This document shows, piece after piece, positions 55,924-62,762 of a DNA stretch of 64,000 nt; within the stretch, counting starts at the first letter, position 1, and each line of letters begins with the position of its first letter. This DNA comes from Candidatus Micropelagos thuwalensis (GTDB taxonomy: Bacteria; Pseudomonadota; Alphaproteobacteria; RS24): positions 558,001-622,000 of the forward strand of contig NZ_AWXE01000001.1 of assembly GCF_000469155.1 (NCBI RefSeq). Direction: 5' to 3'. The notes beneath the pieces were generated by a model, which worked only from the letters and a program-made list of their open reading frames with translations, made no database searches and was not told where the DNA came from. The position numbers and the translations under genes are program-made.

Positions 55924-55969
55924 TGCACAATGTGCAGATTCCAAAGTAGGCTTTCTTTAACTACTTTGG
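55924..55969 (+). repeat. Two inverted repeats in the leader of the hydrolase gene
   Basis: TGCACA-A-TGTGCA (55924-55936) and CCAAAGTAG (55941-55949) / CTACTTTGG (55961-55969), nine perfect base pairs with an 11-base loop. The second lies eight bases before the hydrolase ATG, so it could hide the ribosome site or partly stop read-through from the Fur-box gene. Confidence 0.5.
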
Positions 55970-55977
55970 ATACAAAA

Positions 55978-56982
55978 ATGACCAATATCGACTGGACGAC
56001 CCCCCGTTTCATTGACCTACCAGATTTACGCATGGCAGTGTTTGAAACTGGGCAAAGGTCATCGACCACCCCGACAATTATCCTGTGTCACGGGTTCCCT
56101 GAAATTGCCTATAGCTGGCGGCATATCATGACCCCACTTGCAAATTTGGGCTTTCATGTGGTTGCGCCGGATTTAAGAGGCTTTGGGGCGACGGGAAATC
56201 CATTAAGTGACACAGGCGATGACACGAGCGTAAACTTATTCGACATGCAACATTTATGCGATGACATGGCACATCTACTGGATGCTCTAGGTCTGGAAGA
56301 AGCAATTTTCACCGGACACGATTGGGGCGGTTTTGTTGTTTGGCAAATGCCATTTTACCACCCAAATCGCACAAAGGCTGTCATCGGTATCAACACCCCT
56401 TTTATACCGCGTCAGGAAATAGACCCCATAGAAATTTTCAAAGCCATATGGGGAAAGGATTCTTACCTGGTAAGATTTCAAGAATACGGTGTTGCTGAAA
56501 AAATACTGGATGAAAATCCGCGTAAAACCCTTCTAGCATCCTATCGCTCACCGACGGGAAGTAATTTTAATGGCGATGAAGCAACTCAAAAAATGTGGAA
56601 AAACTTTGAGTTATTAAACATTCTGAAATCTGATGAAACGCAATGGCCCGGTCATCAGCTTTTACCGGATGCAGAGTTTCAACCCTATATTGATGCCTTC
56701 TCCAAGACTGGGTTTCGTGGCGGCGTGAATTGGTATCGGAATTTCACACGCAACTGGGAACTAAGTGAAAATTTCCCCGACAAAATTGACCTGCCTTGTC
56801 TGATGATTTGCGCTGAGAAAGACCCTGTTCTCCCCCCTGCCATGGCAGATGTCATGCCAGAACATATTGCAGATCTAGAAACCAAACTCATAAAAAACTG
56901 CGGACACTGGACTCAATCGGAAAAACCAGATGAACTTTTTGGCTTCATGAAAGACTGGCTCGAAAAAAGATTCCCTGTATAA
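55978..56982 (+). CDS. Alpha/beta hydrolase, epoxide-hydrolase-like
   Basis: 334 residues. Oxyanion motif HGFPE, nucleophile elbow GHDWGGFVVW with catalytic Asp, and the acid/His end NCGHWTQSEKPDELF. HGxPxx plus Asp nucleophile and lid Tyr residues (SWRHI, WYRNF) place it with soluble epoxide hydrolases or haloalkane dehalogenases, with epoxide hydrolase favoured. The ATG at 55978 is chosen over one 16 codons earlier. May be cotranscribed from the Fur-type promoter. Confidence 0.85.
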   Translation: MTNIDWTTPRFIDLPDLRMAVFETGQRSSTTPTIILCHGFPEIAYSWRHIMTPLANLGFHVVAPDLRGFGATGNPLSDTGDDTSVNLFDMQHLCDDMAHLLDALGLEEAIFTGHDWGGFVVWQMPFYHPNRTKAVIGINTPFIPRQEIDPIEIFKAIWGKDSYLVRFQEYGVAEKILDENPRKTLLASYRSPTGSNFNGDEATQKMWKNFELLNILKSDETQWPGHQLLPDAEFQPYIDAFSKTGFRGGVNWYRNFTRNWELSENFPDKIDLPCLMICAEKDPVLPPAMADVMPEHIADLETKLIKNCGHWTQSEKPDELFGFMKDWLEKRFPV

Positions 56983-57059: not shown

Positions 57060-58388
57060 ATGAAAACACCCTCTAACATTAATGGCACGTCCAAAGATTT
57101 GATATCAGCAATCAATGGTGACAGGCCTCTCAAAATTTTACTTCCCAGTTATAGAAGCAAACCCCACACTGGAGGTCAGGGTATTTATATGCGCCTCATC
57201 TCAAAAGCCATTGTAGATTTGGGACATGAGGTTGACGTCATTTCTGGCCCACCCTATCCATATCTAGATCAACGTGTCGGCTTGATTGAATTGCCTTCGC
57301 TTGACATGTATGCCCGCGACAACCCTCTCACCTGTCTCAATAAAGATATTATGAGCAACCGTATCGATTTATTCGAATGGTGGTCACATAATTGGGGCGG
57401 CTTTCCAGAGCCTTATACATTCGGCGAACGGTTAAAAAATTATATGAAAACACGGATTTCAGATTACGACATCATGCATGACAATCAGACACTTTGTTAT
57501 GGCATGCTCGAAGTTCGCAATATGGGTTTGCCTGTTGTTGGCACAATTCATCATCCAATTACCAAAGATCGTCATATCGAAATTACACATGCAAAATCAC
57601 TTTTTCTTAAACTGTTGAAATGGCGTTGGTATAGTTTTCTCAATATGCAAATCCGGGTGGCGCGGCAGCTTGACCCGCTTATAGTTGTCTCTGACAGCAC
57701 CAAGCGTGATGTTCATAAAGATTTCGGCGTACCAATGGAGCGCATGCAACGCATACATCATGGTATTAATCATGAGGCATTCAGTCCGATGCCTGAAATT
57801 AAACGTAAGCCCAATCGCTTAATGGCAACCGCCAGCGCGGATGTCCCGCTTAAAGGGCTGATTTACCTCATCCGAGCCTATGCGGAGCTTTTAAAAGAGT
57901 TTCCTGATCTGGAGTTGGTTGTGGTGGGCAGCCTTCGGGAGGGGCCCACAATGCAAGAACTTGAAAAACGCGGCATTCATGACCGTGTTCAATTCATCTC
58001 TGGCCTTGATGAGGAAGACATAAGAAAGCTCTATGCCGAGGCAACCATTGCTGTCTCTCCGTCTGTTTATGAGGGCTTCGGCTTTCCTGCGGGCGAAGCT
58101 TTATCATGCGGTGTTCCGCTGGTCTCAACAGATGGTGGGTCGCTGCCGGAAGTCGTCGGCGATGCAGGGATTATAGTACCACATTCAAATCCGCCTGCAC
58201 TTGCCCAAGCAATTGCAGATTTGCTGAATAATCCAGATAAGCGAGACGCGCTTTCAGTCAAAGGGCGTAAACATATTTTAGAAAATTTTACTTGGTCGCG
58301 TTGCGCACAAGAGGTCGTCGATATGTATCGGGCCACTATCGCCAAAAATGCCAATATACAGTTAACCAATGCAGACAATTCAACTTGA
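57060..58388 (+). CDS. Family-4-like glycosyltransferase
   Basis: 442 residues, GT-B fold: ILLPSYRSKPHTGGQGIYMRLISKAI (N-terminal Gly-rich), VVGTIHHPITKDRH, and the C-terminal donor-binding E-x7-E (SVYEGFGFPAGEALSCGVPLVSTDGGSLPEVVGDAG). A sugar-transfer role in a glycolipid or polysaccharide is inferred. The ATG at 57060 is used over an in-frame TTG upstream. Its last 20 bp overlap the methyltransferase start, and a six-hairpin-type gene follows, so the three are likely coupled. Confidence 0.88.
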   Translation: MKTPSNINGTSKDLISAINGDRPLKILLPSYRSKPHTGGQGIYMRLISKAIVDLGHEVDVISGPPYPYLDQRVGLIELPSLDMYARDNPLTCLNKDIMSNRIDLFEWWSHNWGGFPEPYTFGERLKNYMKTRISDYDIMHDNQTLCYGMLEVRNMGLPVVGTIHHPITKDRHIEITHAKSLFLKLLKWRWYSFLNMQIRVARQLDPLIVVSDSTKRDVHKDFGVPMERMQRIHHGINHEAFSPMPEIKRKPNRLMATASADVPLKGLIYLIRAYAELLKEFPDLELVVVGSLREGPTMQELEKRGIHDRVQFISGLDEEDIRKLYAEATIAVSPSVYEGFGFPAGEALSCGVPLVSTDGGSLPEVVGDAGIIVPHSNPPALAQAIADLLNNPDKRDALSVKGRKHILENFTWSRCAQEVVDMYRATIAKNANIQLTNADNST

Positions 58389-59079
58389 AAAACTTAACGT
58401 TAAAGAAGGTCATAAAGTACTAGACCTTGGTTGTGGACACGGACGGCATTGTCACGCCGTTTATTATCACAATGACTGCCAGATAATCGGGGTAGATCTT
58501 GGCTTTGAAGATATTCTTATTGCACGAGATGGATTTGCAGCCTATCCAGATTTAGCAGGTCAATCAAAAAGCCGTTTCGGACTAAGTGTAGCTGATGCGC
58601 TTCACCTCCCCTTCGCTGATGACACATTTGACAGAGTTATCTGTTCTGAAGTTCTGGAACATATTCCTGATTATCTTGCCGCAATTGAAGAAATATTGCG
58701 TGTCACCAAACCTGGTGGGCGCATTGGTGTTTCAGTGCCACGCTACTGGCCCGAAAAAATATGCTGGCTTCTATCGGCAGATTATCACAATGAGCCAGGC
58801 GGCCACATCCGCATTTTCCGTGCCAACGAGTTGGAAGATGATTTCACTTCACGCGGATTTAAAAAAATTTGTCATCACTGGGCGCATGGTCTGCATTCCC
58901 CATATTGGTGGTTAAGATGCTTACTCGGCGTGAAAAAAGATAAAGTTTTCGGGGTACGCCATTATCATAAATTGCTGGTTGCAGAAATGATGAACCCAAA
59001 TGGTCTCGTGGCTGCATTCGGCAAACTTCTCGACCCGATTATGGGAAAGTCAGTCGTGTATTATTTCGACAAAAAATAA
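58369..59079 (+). CDS. Class I SAM-dependent methyltransferase (Methyltransf_11 type)
   Basis: 236 residues. SAM motif VLDLGCGHGRHCHAVY, GVDLGFEDILIARDGF, motif post-I ADALHLPFADDTFDRVICSEVLEHIPDYLAAIEEILRVTKPGG, and a Trp-rich C-terminus (HHWAHGLHSPYWWLRCLLG). Resembles O-methyltransferases acting on glycans or lipids. Begins inside the glycosyltransferase 3' end. Confidence 0.87.
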   Translation: MQTIQLEKLNVKEGHKVLDLGCGHGRHCHAVYYHNDCQIIGVDLGFEDILIARDGFAAYPDLAGQSKSRFGLSVADALHLPFADDTFDRVICSEVLEHIPDYLAAIEEILRVTKPGGRIGVSVPRYWPEKICWLLSADYHNEPGGHIRIFRANELEDDFTSRGFKKICHHWAHGLHSPYWWLRCLLGVKKDKVFGVRHYHKLLVAEMMNPNGLVAAFGKLLDPIMGKSVVYYFDKK

Positions 59080-59081
59080 AT

Positions 59082-60149
59082 ATGAATAACATAAAATCTT
59101 TCAGCCCTTATTTTGACGGCACCGTAGAAAAAATCATATCTATACAAATAGAGGATGGTGGCATTCCATGGTTCAAGAATGGCGTACTGGATCCTTGGAA
59201 TCATCTCGAAGCAGTCATGGCGCTCAACCTTTGCGGTAAGAAAGAAAACGTCAAACGCGGTTTTGATTATCTTTTTAACACCCAACTCAATGACGGCGCG
59301 TGGTGGGGACAACTTGGAAGCGCTGTTCCATTGGATGAAGGTCTGATGCACTTTTCATCCGAGGATATGGACTCAGGTAACCGGACAAAAGACACAAACT
59401 TCGCGGCTTATATCGCTACGGCTGTTTGGCATGATTATCTTCTTAATAATAATCTGGATTTTGTTAAAACGGCTTGGCCTCATGTGAAAAAGGCTATTGA
59501 GTTTTCACTCTCACTCCAAACAGAAGATGGTGATATACGCTGGGCAGCAGAGACGGATACCACGCGTGTCGATGACGCATTGGTCACAGGTTGCTGTTCA
59601 ATTTTTAAAAGTCTTAACTCATCTTTAAAACTCGCAGAGTTAGCCATTTTTGATACTGACGCCAACAGGTATATTCATAAGTGGACAGCGGCACGAGATA
59701 AATTGCGTGATGCTCTCATTAACAAGCCATATCGCTTTGATCGAAATTGGCAGCCCAAAGATAATTTCTCAATGGATTGGTACTATCCCGTTTTGACTGG
59801 TGTCCTAGAAGGTGAAGCCGCGCAAAAACGGTTGGACGAAAAATGGGATGTTTTCGTTGTCGACAAGTTCGGTTGCAAATGTGTCAGCGACGAACCCTGG
59901 GTCACGGTTGCCGAAACAGCTGAACTGGTCATGGCGCTAGTAAAAGCTGGGAGAAAAAACCAAGCAAAGGAAATTTTGTCATGGCTAGATAAATATCGCG
60001 ATAAGGATGGCGGCTACTGGATGGGCTACCAGACAGAGCGTAAGATGAACTGGCCTCTAGAAAAACCGCCATGGACTTCCGGTGCTGTTATACTCGCAAC
60101 GGATGCGGTTTTTGATATCACCCCTGCCAGCAAACTATTTAGCCAATAG
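59082..60149 (+). CDS. Alpha-alpha toroid (prenyltransferase/six-hairpin-like) protein
   Basis: 355 residues of repeated helix pairs with toroid-type motifs: SIQIEDGGIPWFKNGVLDPWNHLEAVMALNLCG, NTQLNDGAWW, SLQTEDGDIRWAAETDTTRVDDALVTGCCSIFKSL, KYRDKDGGYWMGYQTERKMNWPLEKPPWTSGAVILATDA. The repeated Q-x-x-D-G-x-W signature resembles prenyltransferase/squalene cyclase repeats, but a sugar-binding or glycosidase-like toroid is equally possible and fits the neighbours better. No signal peptide. Three bases after the methyltransferase; convergent with the second methyltransferase. Confidence 0.65.
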   Translation: MNNIKSFSPYFDGTVEKIISIQIEDGGIPWFKNGVLDPWNHLEAVMALNLCGKKENVKRGFDYLFNTQLNDGAWWGQLGSAVPLDEGLMHFSSEDMDSGNRTKDTNFAAYIATAVWHDYLLNNNLDFVKTAWPHVKKAIEFSLSLQTEDGDIRWAAETDTTRVDDALVTGCCSIFKSLNSSLKLAELAIFDTDANRYIHKWTAARDKLRDALINKPYRFDRNWQPKDNFSMDWYYPVLTGVLEGEAAQKRLDEKWDVFVVDKFGCKCVSDEPWVTVAETAELVMALVKAGRKNQAKEILSWLDKYRDKDGGYWMGYQTERKMNWPLEKPPWTSGAVILATDAVFDITPASKLFSQ

Positions 60150-60151
60150 GC

Positions 60152-60784
60152 CTAAAGACGCCGCAAAAAGCGAAGTGATTTCACCGCTTTCACTTCCTCA
60201 AAAAGGCCTGAGGCTATAGCCAGCAAATAGATTTCATAGGGCGAGCGTCCACCGTCCTCAGGATTTGGGAAGACATCATGTATTGCCAATATTCCGCCAG
60301 TCTTGACCCTTGTCGCCCAAAGGCGATAATCATCAAGCGCCGCCGGCATAGAATGACCGCCATCAATAAATAAAAAACAAATATCGCCGTGCACGATATG
60401 GGATGCCATGCGCGAGGGCGCGATGACTGGAATCACGACATCTTCCAAATCAGCGCCTCGTATCGTGCGGCGAAAAGCAGCTAATGATGACATGCCCCCC
60501 GTTTCGATATCCGCAAGGTCGGGATCAAAATACGCCTCTCCCGGTTGGTTCTCTTCAGAGCCATAATGGTGATCAACTGAAACCATAAGACCGCCTCTCT
60601 GGCGAACTGCATTGCCGATATAGACAGTGGATTTGCCGCAATAACTGCCGATTTCAACTGTTAGAGAGTTTGGAAAATCAGATATAACCTCGAGCGCCAT
60701 ATCGTGCAAAGCGCTTCCTTCATCTGGATCCATAAAACCTTTAATGGTTTCAATATAATCAAGCGTAGCGTCTGAAAGGCTCAT
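60152..60784 (-). CDS. Class I SAM-dependent methyltransferase (Methyltransf_24/CmcI-like)
   Basis: 210 residues. LTVEIGSYCGKSTVYIGNAVRQRGGLMVSVDHHYGSEE, then DICFLFIDGGHSMPAALDDYRLWATRVKTGGILAIHDVFPNPEDGG, the pattern of small O-methyltransferases of the CmcI/TylF group. Overlaps the start of the GPH transporter's stop (60781-60784), coupling the two. Converges with the toroid gene, two bases apart. Confidence 0.85.
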   Translation of the reverse strand: MSLSDATLDYIETIKGFMDPDEGSALHDMALEVISDFPNSLTVEIGSYCGKSTVYIGNAVRQRGGLMVSVDHHYGSEENQPGEAYFDPDLADIETGGMSSLAAFRRTIRGADLEDVVIPVIAPSRMASHIVHGDICFLFIDGGHSMPAALDDYRLWATRVKTGGILAIHDVFPNPEDGGRSPYEIYLLAIASGLFEEVKAVKSLRFLRRL

Positions 60785-62151
60785 AATTGAGTGGCTTCGC
60801 GGTTCGTATCGAGTTCGGTTCGAATGTTATTATAAGTTTCTTCATTGAGTTTAAAAAAGCTGAACATAAACGCCGCCAGTATATAAAACATACAAGGCAA
60901 TAAGGTGAACATAAATTTCATCGTATCAATGACCAAATCTGTTTGTGGCACATTCGGTTCAAATCCGACAAAACTCAAGACCATGCCGAGAATAAATAAA
61001 ACGATTGCTGTGGAACTTTTCCATACAAGACTCCAAACAGCAAAATAAGCCCCCTCTTTACGGTCACCTGTTTGCAGTTCGTCATAATCAATAATGTCGC
61101 TAAAAATAGACGGGCCAATAACATTATTACAGCCATTCGCAGTACCGGCCATTATGCCAGCAATGTAGAGATGCGCTAAATTATTGTAATCGGCAAAAAA
61201 CAAAGACCCGAAAGCAGTCCCGGAAAGCAACATTGAGAAAGTATAAAGATTTTTCTTGCCGAATTTGCGCGCCAGCGGCATCCAGATTGGAACAAGCAAC
61301 AAAGAAGGGAGCATAAAGAATAAAATAAATACCGAAGCAATATTCGCATCATTGAGAATATATGTACAAACATAGATAACGAGCGTGGATGTCAGCGCAA
61401 AACTTACATTATCCATAAAATTCACAATCAGAATGCGCCGAGCATACATGTTTTTAAATACATCTTTGATAACCGGTAATACCGAGGTTGAACGGCGTTC
61501 GGCAAATCCCGGCTTTTCCCGCATTCCATAAGCACAAATCAGGACACTAATAGCTGTCAAAGAACCAATAAATGTTGCTTGTTTACCGGCAAAATCAATG
61601 ACCTTCTCTGCTCCCTCACTGTGCAACATGGTCAGAGAATAAATCCCGCCAAGGCTCATCACATAGCCGGCTAACCATCCGGCATGGCGACAACCAAAAA
61701 CAATATTTCGTTGGTGATAATCTTCAGTTAGCTCAGCCGCGATGGCAAAATGCGGCACATAAAAGAGCGTTGAGGCGGTATAAAAAAGGATAACGGCTGC
61801 ACCGAACCACAAAATCGTAATCAACTCCTCAGAGCCAGAAGCGGGATTAAACAACATATAAAAAGCAAATCCGAGGGGCACAGCAGCTATTACCAGCCAC
61901 GGGCGTCGTCGTCCAAAACGCGTTCGGGTGTTATCAGAGAGATGACCAATAAGCGGATCAGAAATTGCATCCCAAAGACGCGATATTCCGAATATAAAAC
62001 CGACAGTTGCGGGAGCAATCGCCAAAAAATCGGTCGCAAAAATCATAAGGTAAAGATTGATGAGACCATACATATAGCCAAAGCCAATCGTTGGAAGCGT
62101 AAAATATACCAACGAGCTTCCGAAACTTTTGCTCATACCAAATCCATGCAA
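60781..62151 (-). CDS. GPH-family (MelB-like) sodium/sugar symporter
   Basis: 456 residues with about 12 membrane helices. Family motifs: FGYMYGLINLYLMIFATDFLAIAPATVGFIFGISRLWDAISDPLIGHLSDNTRTRFGRRRPWLVIAAVP (GPH N-terminal signature with DxxxDPxxGxxxDxTxxRxGRRRP). Later GIMAGTANGCNNVIGPSIFSDIIDYDELQTGDRKEGAYF. GPH members move sugars or glycosides with Na+ or H+; the substrate may be a precursor or product of the neighbouring glycan genes, an inference from location. Confidence 0.9.
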   Translation of the reverse strand: MHGFGMSKSFGSSLVYFTLPTIGFGYMYGLINLYLMIFATDFLAIAPATVGFIFGISRLWDAISDPLIGHLSDNTRTRFGRRRPWLVIAAVPLGFAFYMLFNPASGSEELITILWFGAAVILFYTASTLFYVPHFAIAAELTEDYHQRNIVFGCRHAGWLAGYVMSLGGIYSLTMLHSEGAEKVIDFAGKQATFIGSLTAISVLICAYGMREKPGFAERRSTSVLPVIKDVFKNMYARRILIVNFMDNVSFALTSTLVIYVCTYILNDANIASVFILFFMLPSLLLVPIWMPLARKFGKKNLYTFSMLLSGTAFGSLFFADYNNLAHLYIAGIMAGTANGCNNVIGPSIFSDIIDYDELQTGDRKEGAYFAVWSLVWKSSTAIVLFILGMVLSFVGFEPNVPQTDLVIDTMKFMFTLLPCMFYILAAFMFSFFKLNEETYNNIRTELDTNREATQL

Positions 62152-62267: not shown

Positions 62268-62762
62268 ATGCAAGCCAAAAGAATAATGCATGTGATATTT
62301 TCTAGGAAATATCACAATCAAGAGCACATGGCTGCTGTCTTAATAAATCGACAAATCAATAATCATCCCGTTGCGGTATGTGTTAGAAGCGATTGTGACG
62401 CATATCGCATTAGGTCGCTTCTCAATTACCTTGATCCTCGTGTGGAAATTTTCAGAATCCCAGTTAGTTTCAGCTTTGCCTATTTACTCTCCGCTCTGAT
62501 GATATGGCACCCCACACTATTACATTGGCATAATCTAAGGACTCGCAAAACGCTCAGCTTGGTGTTTTGGCGATTACCCCAGATATCTACCCAGCATGCC
62601 TCTCACAACCGCCCGAACAGGCGGATACATAGAAAAACGCTAAAGACACCCAAATCAGAGCCAATTTTTAATCCAACCACAGATAAAAGGAAAAAAGTTC
62701 CAGAAGATGGACGATATGAGTGGTCGACAAGCCTAATTAGACGTATGTTGTTTTTCTTCTAA
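62268..62762 (+). CDS. Short glycosyltransferase-like open frame, possibly truncated
   Basis: 164 residues. N-terminal two thirds (KRIMHVIFSRKYHNQEHMAAVLINRQ, then VCVRSDCDAYRIRSLLNYLD and LLHWHNLRTRKTLSLVFWRL) looks like the first half of a GT-B glycosyltransferase. The remaining third (PNRRIHRKTLKTPKSEP and on) is basic and low in family character, and the donor-binding half is absent. Either a decayed gene or a novel short protein. Upstream of the PCuAC gene by 48 bp. Confidence 0.4.
   Translation: MQAKRIMHVIFSRKYHNQEHMAAVLINRQINNHPVAVCVRSDCDAYRIRSLLNYLDPRVEIFRIPVSFSFAYLLSALMIWHPTLLHWHNLRTRKTLSLVFWRLPQISTQHASHNRPNRRIHRKTLKTPKSEPIFNPTTDKRKKVPEDGRYEWSTSLIRRMLFFF

Follow-up and report, generated by a model that had tools for sequence, protein, structure and literature searches.

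A group of four genes (57060–60784) in the 64,000-nucleotide stretch of DNA analysed here, referred to as the window, is in all likelihood a chromosomal cluster for the biosynthesis and recycling of methylmannose polysaccharide (MMP), a 3-O-methylmannose polymer, or of something very closely related to it, and by its sequence relationships it would be orthologous to the mycobacterial cluster. Homology, gene order, catalytic residues, fold and GDP-mannose supply genes have been demonstrated for this cluster. For three of the four proteins (ManT, MmpH, and MeT1) the best solved relative is, by a large margin, a characterised MMP enzyme. The pathway itself is already known; what is new here is the host range of its gene set, this copy belonging to a marine alphaproteobacterium. 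A preliminary description of this DNA had proposed a coherent pathway in which a glycosyltransferase, two O-methyltransferases and an alpha-toroid lead to a methylated glycan, and this is borne out. It had also stated that the combination fitted no pathway that could be named; the set corresponds, each gene to its counterpart, to the MMP cluster of mycobacteria and was thus, when searched, a known pathway.

Organization of the Locus

The five open reading frames previously described, three on the plus strand and two on the minus strand, are all present at their coordinates and strands. Gene 1 (57060..58388, plus strand) codes for a ManT-like GT4 alpha-(1->4)-mannosyltransferase and is followed on the same strand by gene 2 (58369..59079), coding for a pMeT3-like SAM methyltransferase (a putative mannose-unit 3-O-methyltransferase), whose start overlaps the ManT gene by 20 nt. 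Gene 3 (59082..60149, plus strand), located 2 nt after the pMeT3 gene, encodes the “toroid,” an (alpha/alpha)6 barrel resembling the endo-alpha-(1->4)-mannosidase MmpH. Gene 4 (60152..60784, minus strand), for a MeT1-like 1-O-methyltransferase, converges on the MmpH gene with the stops 2 nt apart, and its start is overlapped by 4 nt by gene 5 (60781..62151, minus strand), coding for a neighbouring GPH (MelB-type) symporter. Pfam and NCBIfam searches with the five reading frames supported GT4, Methyltransf_11/23/25 (gene 2), Methyltransf_24 and MFS_2/TIGR00792 GPH assignments. A repeat scan and a promoter/terminator scan gave no signal above chance.

Relatives and Conserved Residues of the Four Proteins

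In phmmer searches against the PDB, the product of gene 1 matched ManT of M. hassiacum (7qsg) with an E-value of 7.7e-94, the next PDB sequence scoring 2.5e-18. The equivalents of the catalytic residues His142, Lys240, Glu313, and Glu321 do not vary across 85 homologues, the window protein among them. Asp293, thought to touch guanine (PMC9883506), is replaced by Glu318 in the window; since this column is variable among the ManTs of the clusters, the residue is not family-defining. As for MeT1, the sole PDB match of gene 4 was the M. hassiacum enzyme (6g7d; E 6.4e-54). Residues D71-H72-H73, E78, D141, H144, D152, and H169-D170 are invariant in 86 sequences, and 6g7d is identical to the window protein in 38 of the 39 near-invariant columns listed.

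The pMeT3 protein is putative in mycobacteria too (PMC9883506), and its orthology was assessed with a Nonomuraea protein as the reference, standing in for the mycobacterial one. The window gene, located between manT and mmpH, encodes a protein 44% identical to the one encoded at the corresponding position of the Nonomuraea cluster. Its AlphaFold model (pLDDT 91.6) has a class I methyltransferase fold, with matches including RebM (Z 21.9) and AtmM (Z 20.4), tied scores that reflect the common class I fold only.

For the toroid, phmmer gave MmpH of M. hassiacum (7qsj; E 7.8e-71), followed by a match at 0.012. Structural prediction, which the preliminary description had advised, led to the same enzyme: the AlphaFold model (pLDDT 93.0) superimposes on 7qsj over 328 residues with Z 47.3, an rmsd of 2.1 A and 39% identity, the next match having a Z of 32.6. 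The window residues D37 (Asp47, the acid), W39, E278 (Glu262, the base), E281, M231, and Y235 are invariant in 96 homologues. The position of Asp50, whose alanine variant is almost inactive (PMC9883506), is occupied by Asn40 in the window and by Asn in 60 of the 96 homologues, including the actinobacterial Nonomuraea one; it is thus not family-defining. Since Asp47 is invariant, this pattern of conservation favours Asp47 over Asp50 as the catalytic acid. Alphaproteobacterial MmpH proteins also carry an insertion of 10–14 residues adjoining the substrate-binding Asn/Phe. The Pfam models for DUF608/GH116 and for squalene-hopene cyclase gave weak scores. For this protein, chemistry of the squalene cyclase or terpene kind was rejected, the PF13243 match (E 1.9e-5) being sub-threshold and covering about 40 residues, whereas the whole protein matches MmpH.

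Synteny, Distribution, and the GPH Transporter

A contig scan, from which the best 80 loci were taken, did not include mycobacteria among these, and Nonomuraea was used instead. Among the matches listed, the order and orientation ManT>pMeT3>MmpH> <MeT1 are the same in 65 of 81 loci (39 alphaproteobacterial and 42 others) from alpha- and gammaproteobacteria and Nonomuraea, an arrangement of genes 1–4 far above chance. The gene order in Nonomuraea is identical to that of the window, and the M. hassiacum locus tags MHAS_04402-04405 are compatible with it. MeT1 was missing from the fetched cluster in six genomes; each of these has the gene at another location, and so do two controls. The cluster is present in 24 of the 28 genomes of the window's family, the window genome included, and its tree tracks bacterial groups, with actinobacteria separate. 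The organism is a relative of the marine PS1 clade. In the literature searched, no mention of proteobacterial MMP genes was found. Given the wide occurrence of the gene set in marine alpha- and gammaproteobacteria, the polymer is probably not a speciality of mycobacteria. A recurrent neighbour in alphaproteobacterial clusters is an alpha/beta hydrolase gene directly upstream of ManT (55930..56982, plus strand in the window), with homologues in 27 of the 39 alphaproteobacterial loci and in none of the 42 others among the matches listed.

The symporter behaves differently. It is a well-supported GPH protein (MFS_2, E 5e-88; TIGR00792, 246.3 bits, above the curated cut-off of 231.35), and its grouping with the other four genes in a single pathway, for the import or export of methylmannosides, would agree with the 4-nt overlap with MeT1 and with the adjacency being preserved in each of the four genomes of the window's genus where the cluster was found. 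On the other hand, this adjacency is confined to that genus: elsewhere in the family MeT1 and GPH are separated by DUF1329 and amidohydrolase genes, outside the family GPH was not found next to the cluster, and among the matches listed it is absent from the fetched flanks of 28 of 39 alphaproteobacterial and all 42 other loci. In addition, DUF1329 was not found in the window genome, consistent with a deletion that put GPH beside MeT1. Participation of the transporter is thus highly improbable; it was rejected as a fifth pathway gene on the grounds of synteny, and we judge it to be an accidental genomic neighbour, contrary to the five-gene grouping first suggested.

Proposed Working and Alternative Readings

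The activities, product and physiological role of the cluster are inferred, and the proposed working is transferred from experiments with M. hassiacum and M. smegmatis. By analogy, ManT would add alpha-(1->4)-mannose from GDP-mannose onto oligomannosides, and pMeT3 would place a methyl group on O3 of the newly added units. MeT1 would add a 1-O-methyl cap to free reducing ends. Finally, MmpH would cleave mature chains into defined short oligomannosides, which would serve as primers for the next chains in a partially conservative mode of replication. The expected product would be a linear alpha-(1->4)-3-O-methylmannan carrying the 1-O-methyl cap. A cytoplasmic location is probable for all four proteins. 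Regarding the supply of GDP-mannose, the genome encodes ManC-type GMP and PMI domains in adjacent reading frames (C1:734141-735546) and two PGM/PMM-family proteins, on contigs C4 and C1. FAS-I, which MMP has been proposed to serve in mycobacteria (PMC9883506), was not found in the window genome; the function of the cluster may therefore differ from the mycobacterial one, and its role here may be other than serving FAS-I.

The absence of FAS-I also speaks for a rather unlikely alternative, in which the four enzymes, homologous to the MMP set, make a related but different methylated alpha-mannan oligosaccharide (of other length, acylated or with another aglycon) that serves some purpose besides the sequestration of acyl-CoA, for example protection against cold or salt. 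The Asp50 to Asn change and the insertion beside the substrate cleft of alphaproteobacterial MmpH point in the same direction, as do the alpha/beta hydrolase accompanying the cluster in many alphaproteobacteria and the acetylated MMP reported from Streptomyces griseus (PMC9883506). However, the four-enzyme set, its order and its catalytic residues are unaltered, and the actinobacterium Nonomuraea likewise has Asn in place of Asp50. A catabolic set degrading environmental methylated mannans has an almost negligible probability: MmpH is a hydrolase and a sugar symporter adjoins the cluster, but ManT and the two methyltransferases are synthetic enzymes, MmpH has no obvious signal peptide by inspection, and the orthologous MmpH is required for MMP production in M. 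smegmatis (PMC9883506). The preliminary description had suggested a compatible solute as one possible product. Compatible-solute synthesis of the mannosylglycerate type was rejected, MMP enzymes being by far the closest relatives and mannosylglycerate hydrolase appearing only as a fold match (Z 26).

Significance and Comparison with Known Systems

MMP has so far been regarded as belonging to mycobacteria and some of their relatives and explained by their fatty acid synthesis and lipid-rich envelope. A complete cluster in many Gram-negatives, its order and catalytic residues intact, weakens this explanation as a general one, as does the lack of FAS-I in the one genome examined for it. It seems somewhat more probable than the contrary that marine alpha- and gammaproteobacteria (the PS1 clade, Parvibaculaceae, Halieaceae/Luminiphilus, Endozoicomonas, and others) widely produce MMP-type polysaccharides inside the cell. 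These would act independently of FAS-I, possibly in adaptation to cold or in the handling of acyl-CoA, and would be a candidate biological source of marine methyl sugars; the mycobacterial polymer would then represent a single branch of a pathway that is older or widely shared. Gram-negative carriers offer non-pathogenic hosts for testing MMP function by simple deletions, the comparison bears on the open mechanistic point of the catalytic acid of MmpH (Asp47 vs Asp50), and database entries of these genes could be renamed.

Among known systems, the closest is the manT-pmeT3-mmpH-meT1 cluster of nontuberculous mycobacteria (PMC9883506 and the 2019 PNAS paper cited there), which has in common with the window all four genes, the catalytic residues and the MmpH fold, with a locus-tag order compatible with the arrangement here. 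The window differs from it in its alphaproteobacterial host, the Asn at Asp50 and the 10–14 residue insertion of MmpH, the lack of FAS-I, and the GPH transporter and alpha/beta hydrolase as neighbours. Squalene-hopene cyclase and prenyltransferase-like toroids are helical toroids likewise, but the PF13243 match is short, weak and below the Pfam cut-off. The (alpha/alpha)6-barrel of the window MmpH is also found in GH15 glucodextranase, in GH63 enzymes including mannosylglycerate hydrolase, and in the M. hassiacum glucosylglycerate hydrolase, and MmpH is held to retain the general base of these inverting enzymes. They match the window model with Z of about 26–29 and 11–13% identity, whereas MmpH does so with Z 47 and 39%.

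Identity of the gene cluster

The five ORFs listed in the preliminary description between 57060 and 62151 have all been confirmed. Its remark that the combination matched no pathway it could name has been superseded, since comparison with solved structures identifies four of them as the methylmannose polysaccharide (MMP) cluster. The alpha-toroid (59082-60149, plus strand), formerly of unclear activity, matches MmpH of Mycolicibacterium hassiacum (7qsj, E 7.8e-71; runner-up 0.012), the GT4 glycosyltransferase (57060-58388, plus strand) matches 7qsg (E 7.7e-94; runner-up 2.5e-18), and the CmcI-like methyltransferase (60152-60784, minus strand) has 6g7d as its sole match (E 6.4e-54). The last two entries, entitled "D-inositol 3-phosphate glycosyltransferase" and "Methyltransferase domain protein" in the PDB, are taken by us to be ManT and MeT1 of M. 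hassiacum, respectively. Support for the first assignment comes from the published ManT residue numbers (Gly15, Lys240, Glu313, and Glu321; PMC9883506), which correspond exactly to the 7qsg chain. For the plus-strand methyltransferase (58369-59079) no close relative was found among solved structures; it occupies the position of pMeT3 and shares 44% identity with its counterpart in the cluster of the actinobacterium Nonomuraea.

The AlphaFold model of MmpH (pLDDT 93.0) superimposes on 7qsj with a Z of 47.3 (2.1 A, 328 residues; runner-up entry 32.6), and that of pMeT3 (pLDDT 91.6) is a class I methyltransferase. The sugar O-methyltransferases RebM and AtmM appear among many matches with tied scores, so this likeness is barely informative about the pMeT3 substrate.

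Gene order and distribution

The plus-strand trio is tightly coupled (a 20-nt overlap, then a 2-nt gap) and converges with two minus-strand genes, MeT1 and a GPH symporter (60781-62151), which overlap by 4 nt. The host genome is 1.96 Mb long and nearly complete (99.4%). MmpH is present in 24 of the 28 genomes of the family, this one included, and was not found in G004, G005, and G009 (56-77% complete) or in G023 (94% complete). Of 385 alphaproteobacterial genomes sampled from 276 genera, 34 have it, spread over 22 genera; among 398 sampled Pseudomonadota, 5 do. A genome-wide scan confirmed at least 564 relatives, the best 80 of which were retained. Among these 80, the closest named relatives by cluster are UBA6963 and alpha proteobacterium IMCC14465 of the marine PS1 clade; Halieaceae, Luminiphilus, Endozoicomonas, Aestuariicella, and Cellvibrionaceae are also represented, as are metagenome-assembled genomes labelled SAR324 (L074) and Desulfohalobiaceae (L092), labels outside the alpha- and gammaproteobacteria. 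In these two, gene transfer or a binning error may account for the cluster.

In the 81 loci formed by these 80 and Nonomuraea, the order ManT, pMeT3, MmpH, and convergent MeT1 is found in 65. One locus has MeT1 on the opposite side, and the others lack at least one gene in the stretch examined, several ending at contig ends. Six genomes without MeT1 at the locus (L081, L082, L088, L095, L097, and L099) all encode it elsewhere (53-56% identity); two controls with MeT1 near the cluster (L083 and L098) were positive. Among these six are several Cellvibrio-like gammaproteobacteria, in which MeT1 has moved out of the cluster without being lost from the genome. A concatenated cluster tree places alphaproteobacteria, most gammaproteobacteria, and two actinobacteria apart, although it is unrooted, with several long branches and unsafe deep forks.

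Neighboring genes

The proposed five-gene set holds for its first four members and fails for GPH, which adjoins MeT1 in the window's genus only. In the remaining genomes of the family that were examined, DUF1329 comes after MeT1 and before GPH, in most cases with an amidohydrolase between DUF1329 and GPH (Pfam assignments for L024 and L032; size and order of the ORFs for the other loci). The window's genome lacks DUF1329, and no GPH homologue was found in the flanks examined at loci outside the family. The simplest reading is that the intervening genes were deleted in this genus, which would have brought GPH next to MeT1.

Upstream, 77 nt before ManT, lies an alpha/beta hydrolase similar to haloalkane dehalogenases and epoxide hydrolases (55930-56982, plus strand). 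Of the 39 alphaproteobacterial loci, 27 have a homologue of it upstream of ManT; none of the other 42 loci does. It may serve the polymer as an accessory esterase, or its position may simply reflect old synteny. On the other side, a 164-aa ORF (62268-62762, plus strand), 57-61% conserved in the genus, gave no Pfam match; by eye its sequence is similar to that of the N-terminal half of GT-B glycosyltransferases, and it is perhaps a truncated gene.

Active sites

Residues were mapped on alignments of about 85-97 homologues (97 for MmpH). His142, Lys240, Glu313, and Glu321 of ManT are invariant, as are Asp47, Trp49, Met215, Tyr219, Glu262, and Glu265 of MmpH. Asp50 of MmpH, sensitive to mutagenesis, and Asp47 were left undecided as candidates for the catalytic acid (PMC9883506). 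Of 96 homologues, 60 have Asn at position 50 (N40 in the window, 59199-59201), including those of a Halieaceae subgroup, of Nonomuraea, and of all the alphaproteobacteria but L030. Since Asp47 never varies and Asn at 50 is unable to donate a proton, the alignment favors Asp47. In alphaproteobacterial MmpH, moreover, some 10-14 residues are inserted directly ahead of the substrate-binding Asn101/Phe102, and product size may differ as a result.

Physiology and comparison with known systems

The MMP pathway itself is already known: Maranha et al. (2023; PMC9883506) described its four-gene cluster, what ManT, MmpH, and MeT1 each catalyze, and a mechanism by which the system recycles itself. The survey in that work covers mycobacteria and related actinobacteria, and no word beginning with "proteobacteria" occurs in its text. 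No report of MMP genes in Gram-negative bacteria was found in the open-access literature searched; earlier notice elsewhere is possible. The proposed role of MMP is the protection of freshly synthesized cytoplasmic fatty acyl-CoA, and mycobacteria that lost it grew more slowly at 15 C (PMC9883506). FAS-I was not found in the window's genome (PF08354; positive control Corynebacterium glutamicum), so MMP must serve some other purpose in such a bacterium. For a marine host, adaptation to cold is an appealing guess. Any connection with the methyl sugars found in marine dissolved organic matter is speculative, and a literature search gave no direct support for it.

Genes for GDP-mannose supply are present in the genome. 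The mannose-1-phosphate guanylyltransferase (GMP) and mannose-6-phosphate isomerase (PMI) parts occupy two overlapping frames (G000:C1:734141-735546, locus L117 of the window's own genome), adjoined by a GDP-fucose synthase-like gene. An AGGAGG-like site ahead of an ATG suggests two genes and not a frameshift; in contrast to the TIGR01479 model, where both parts are fused, they stand here in separate frames.
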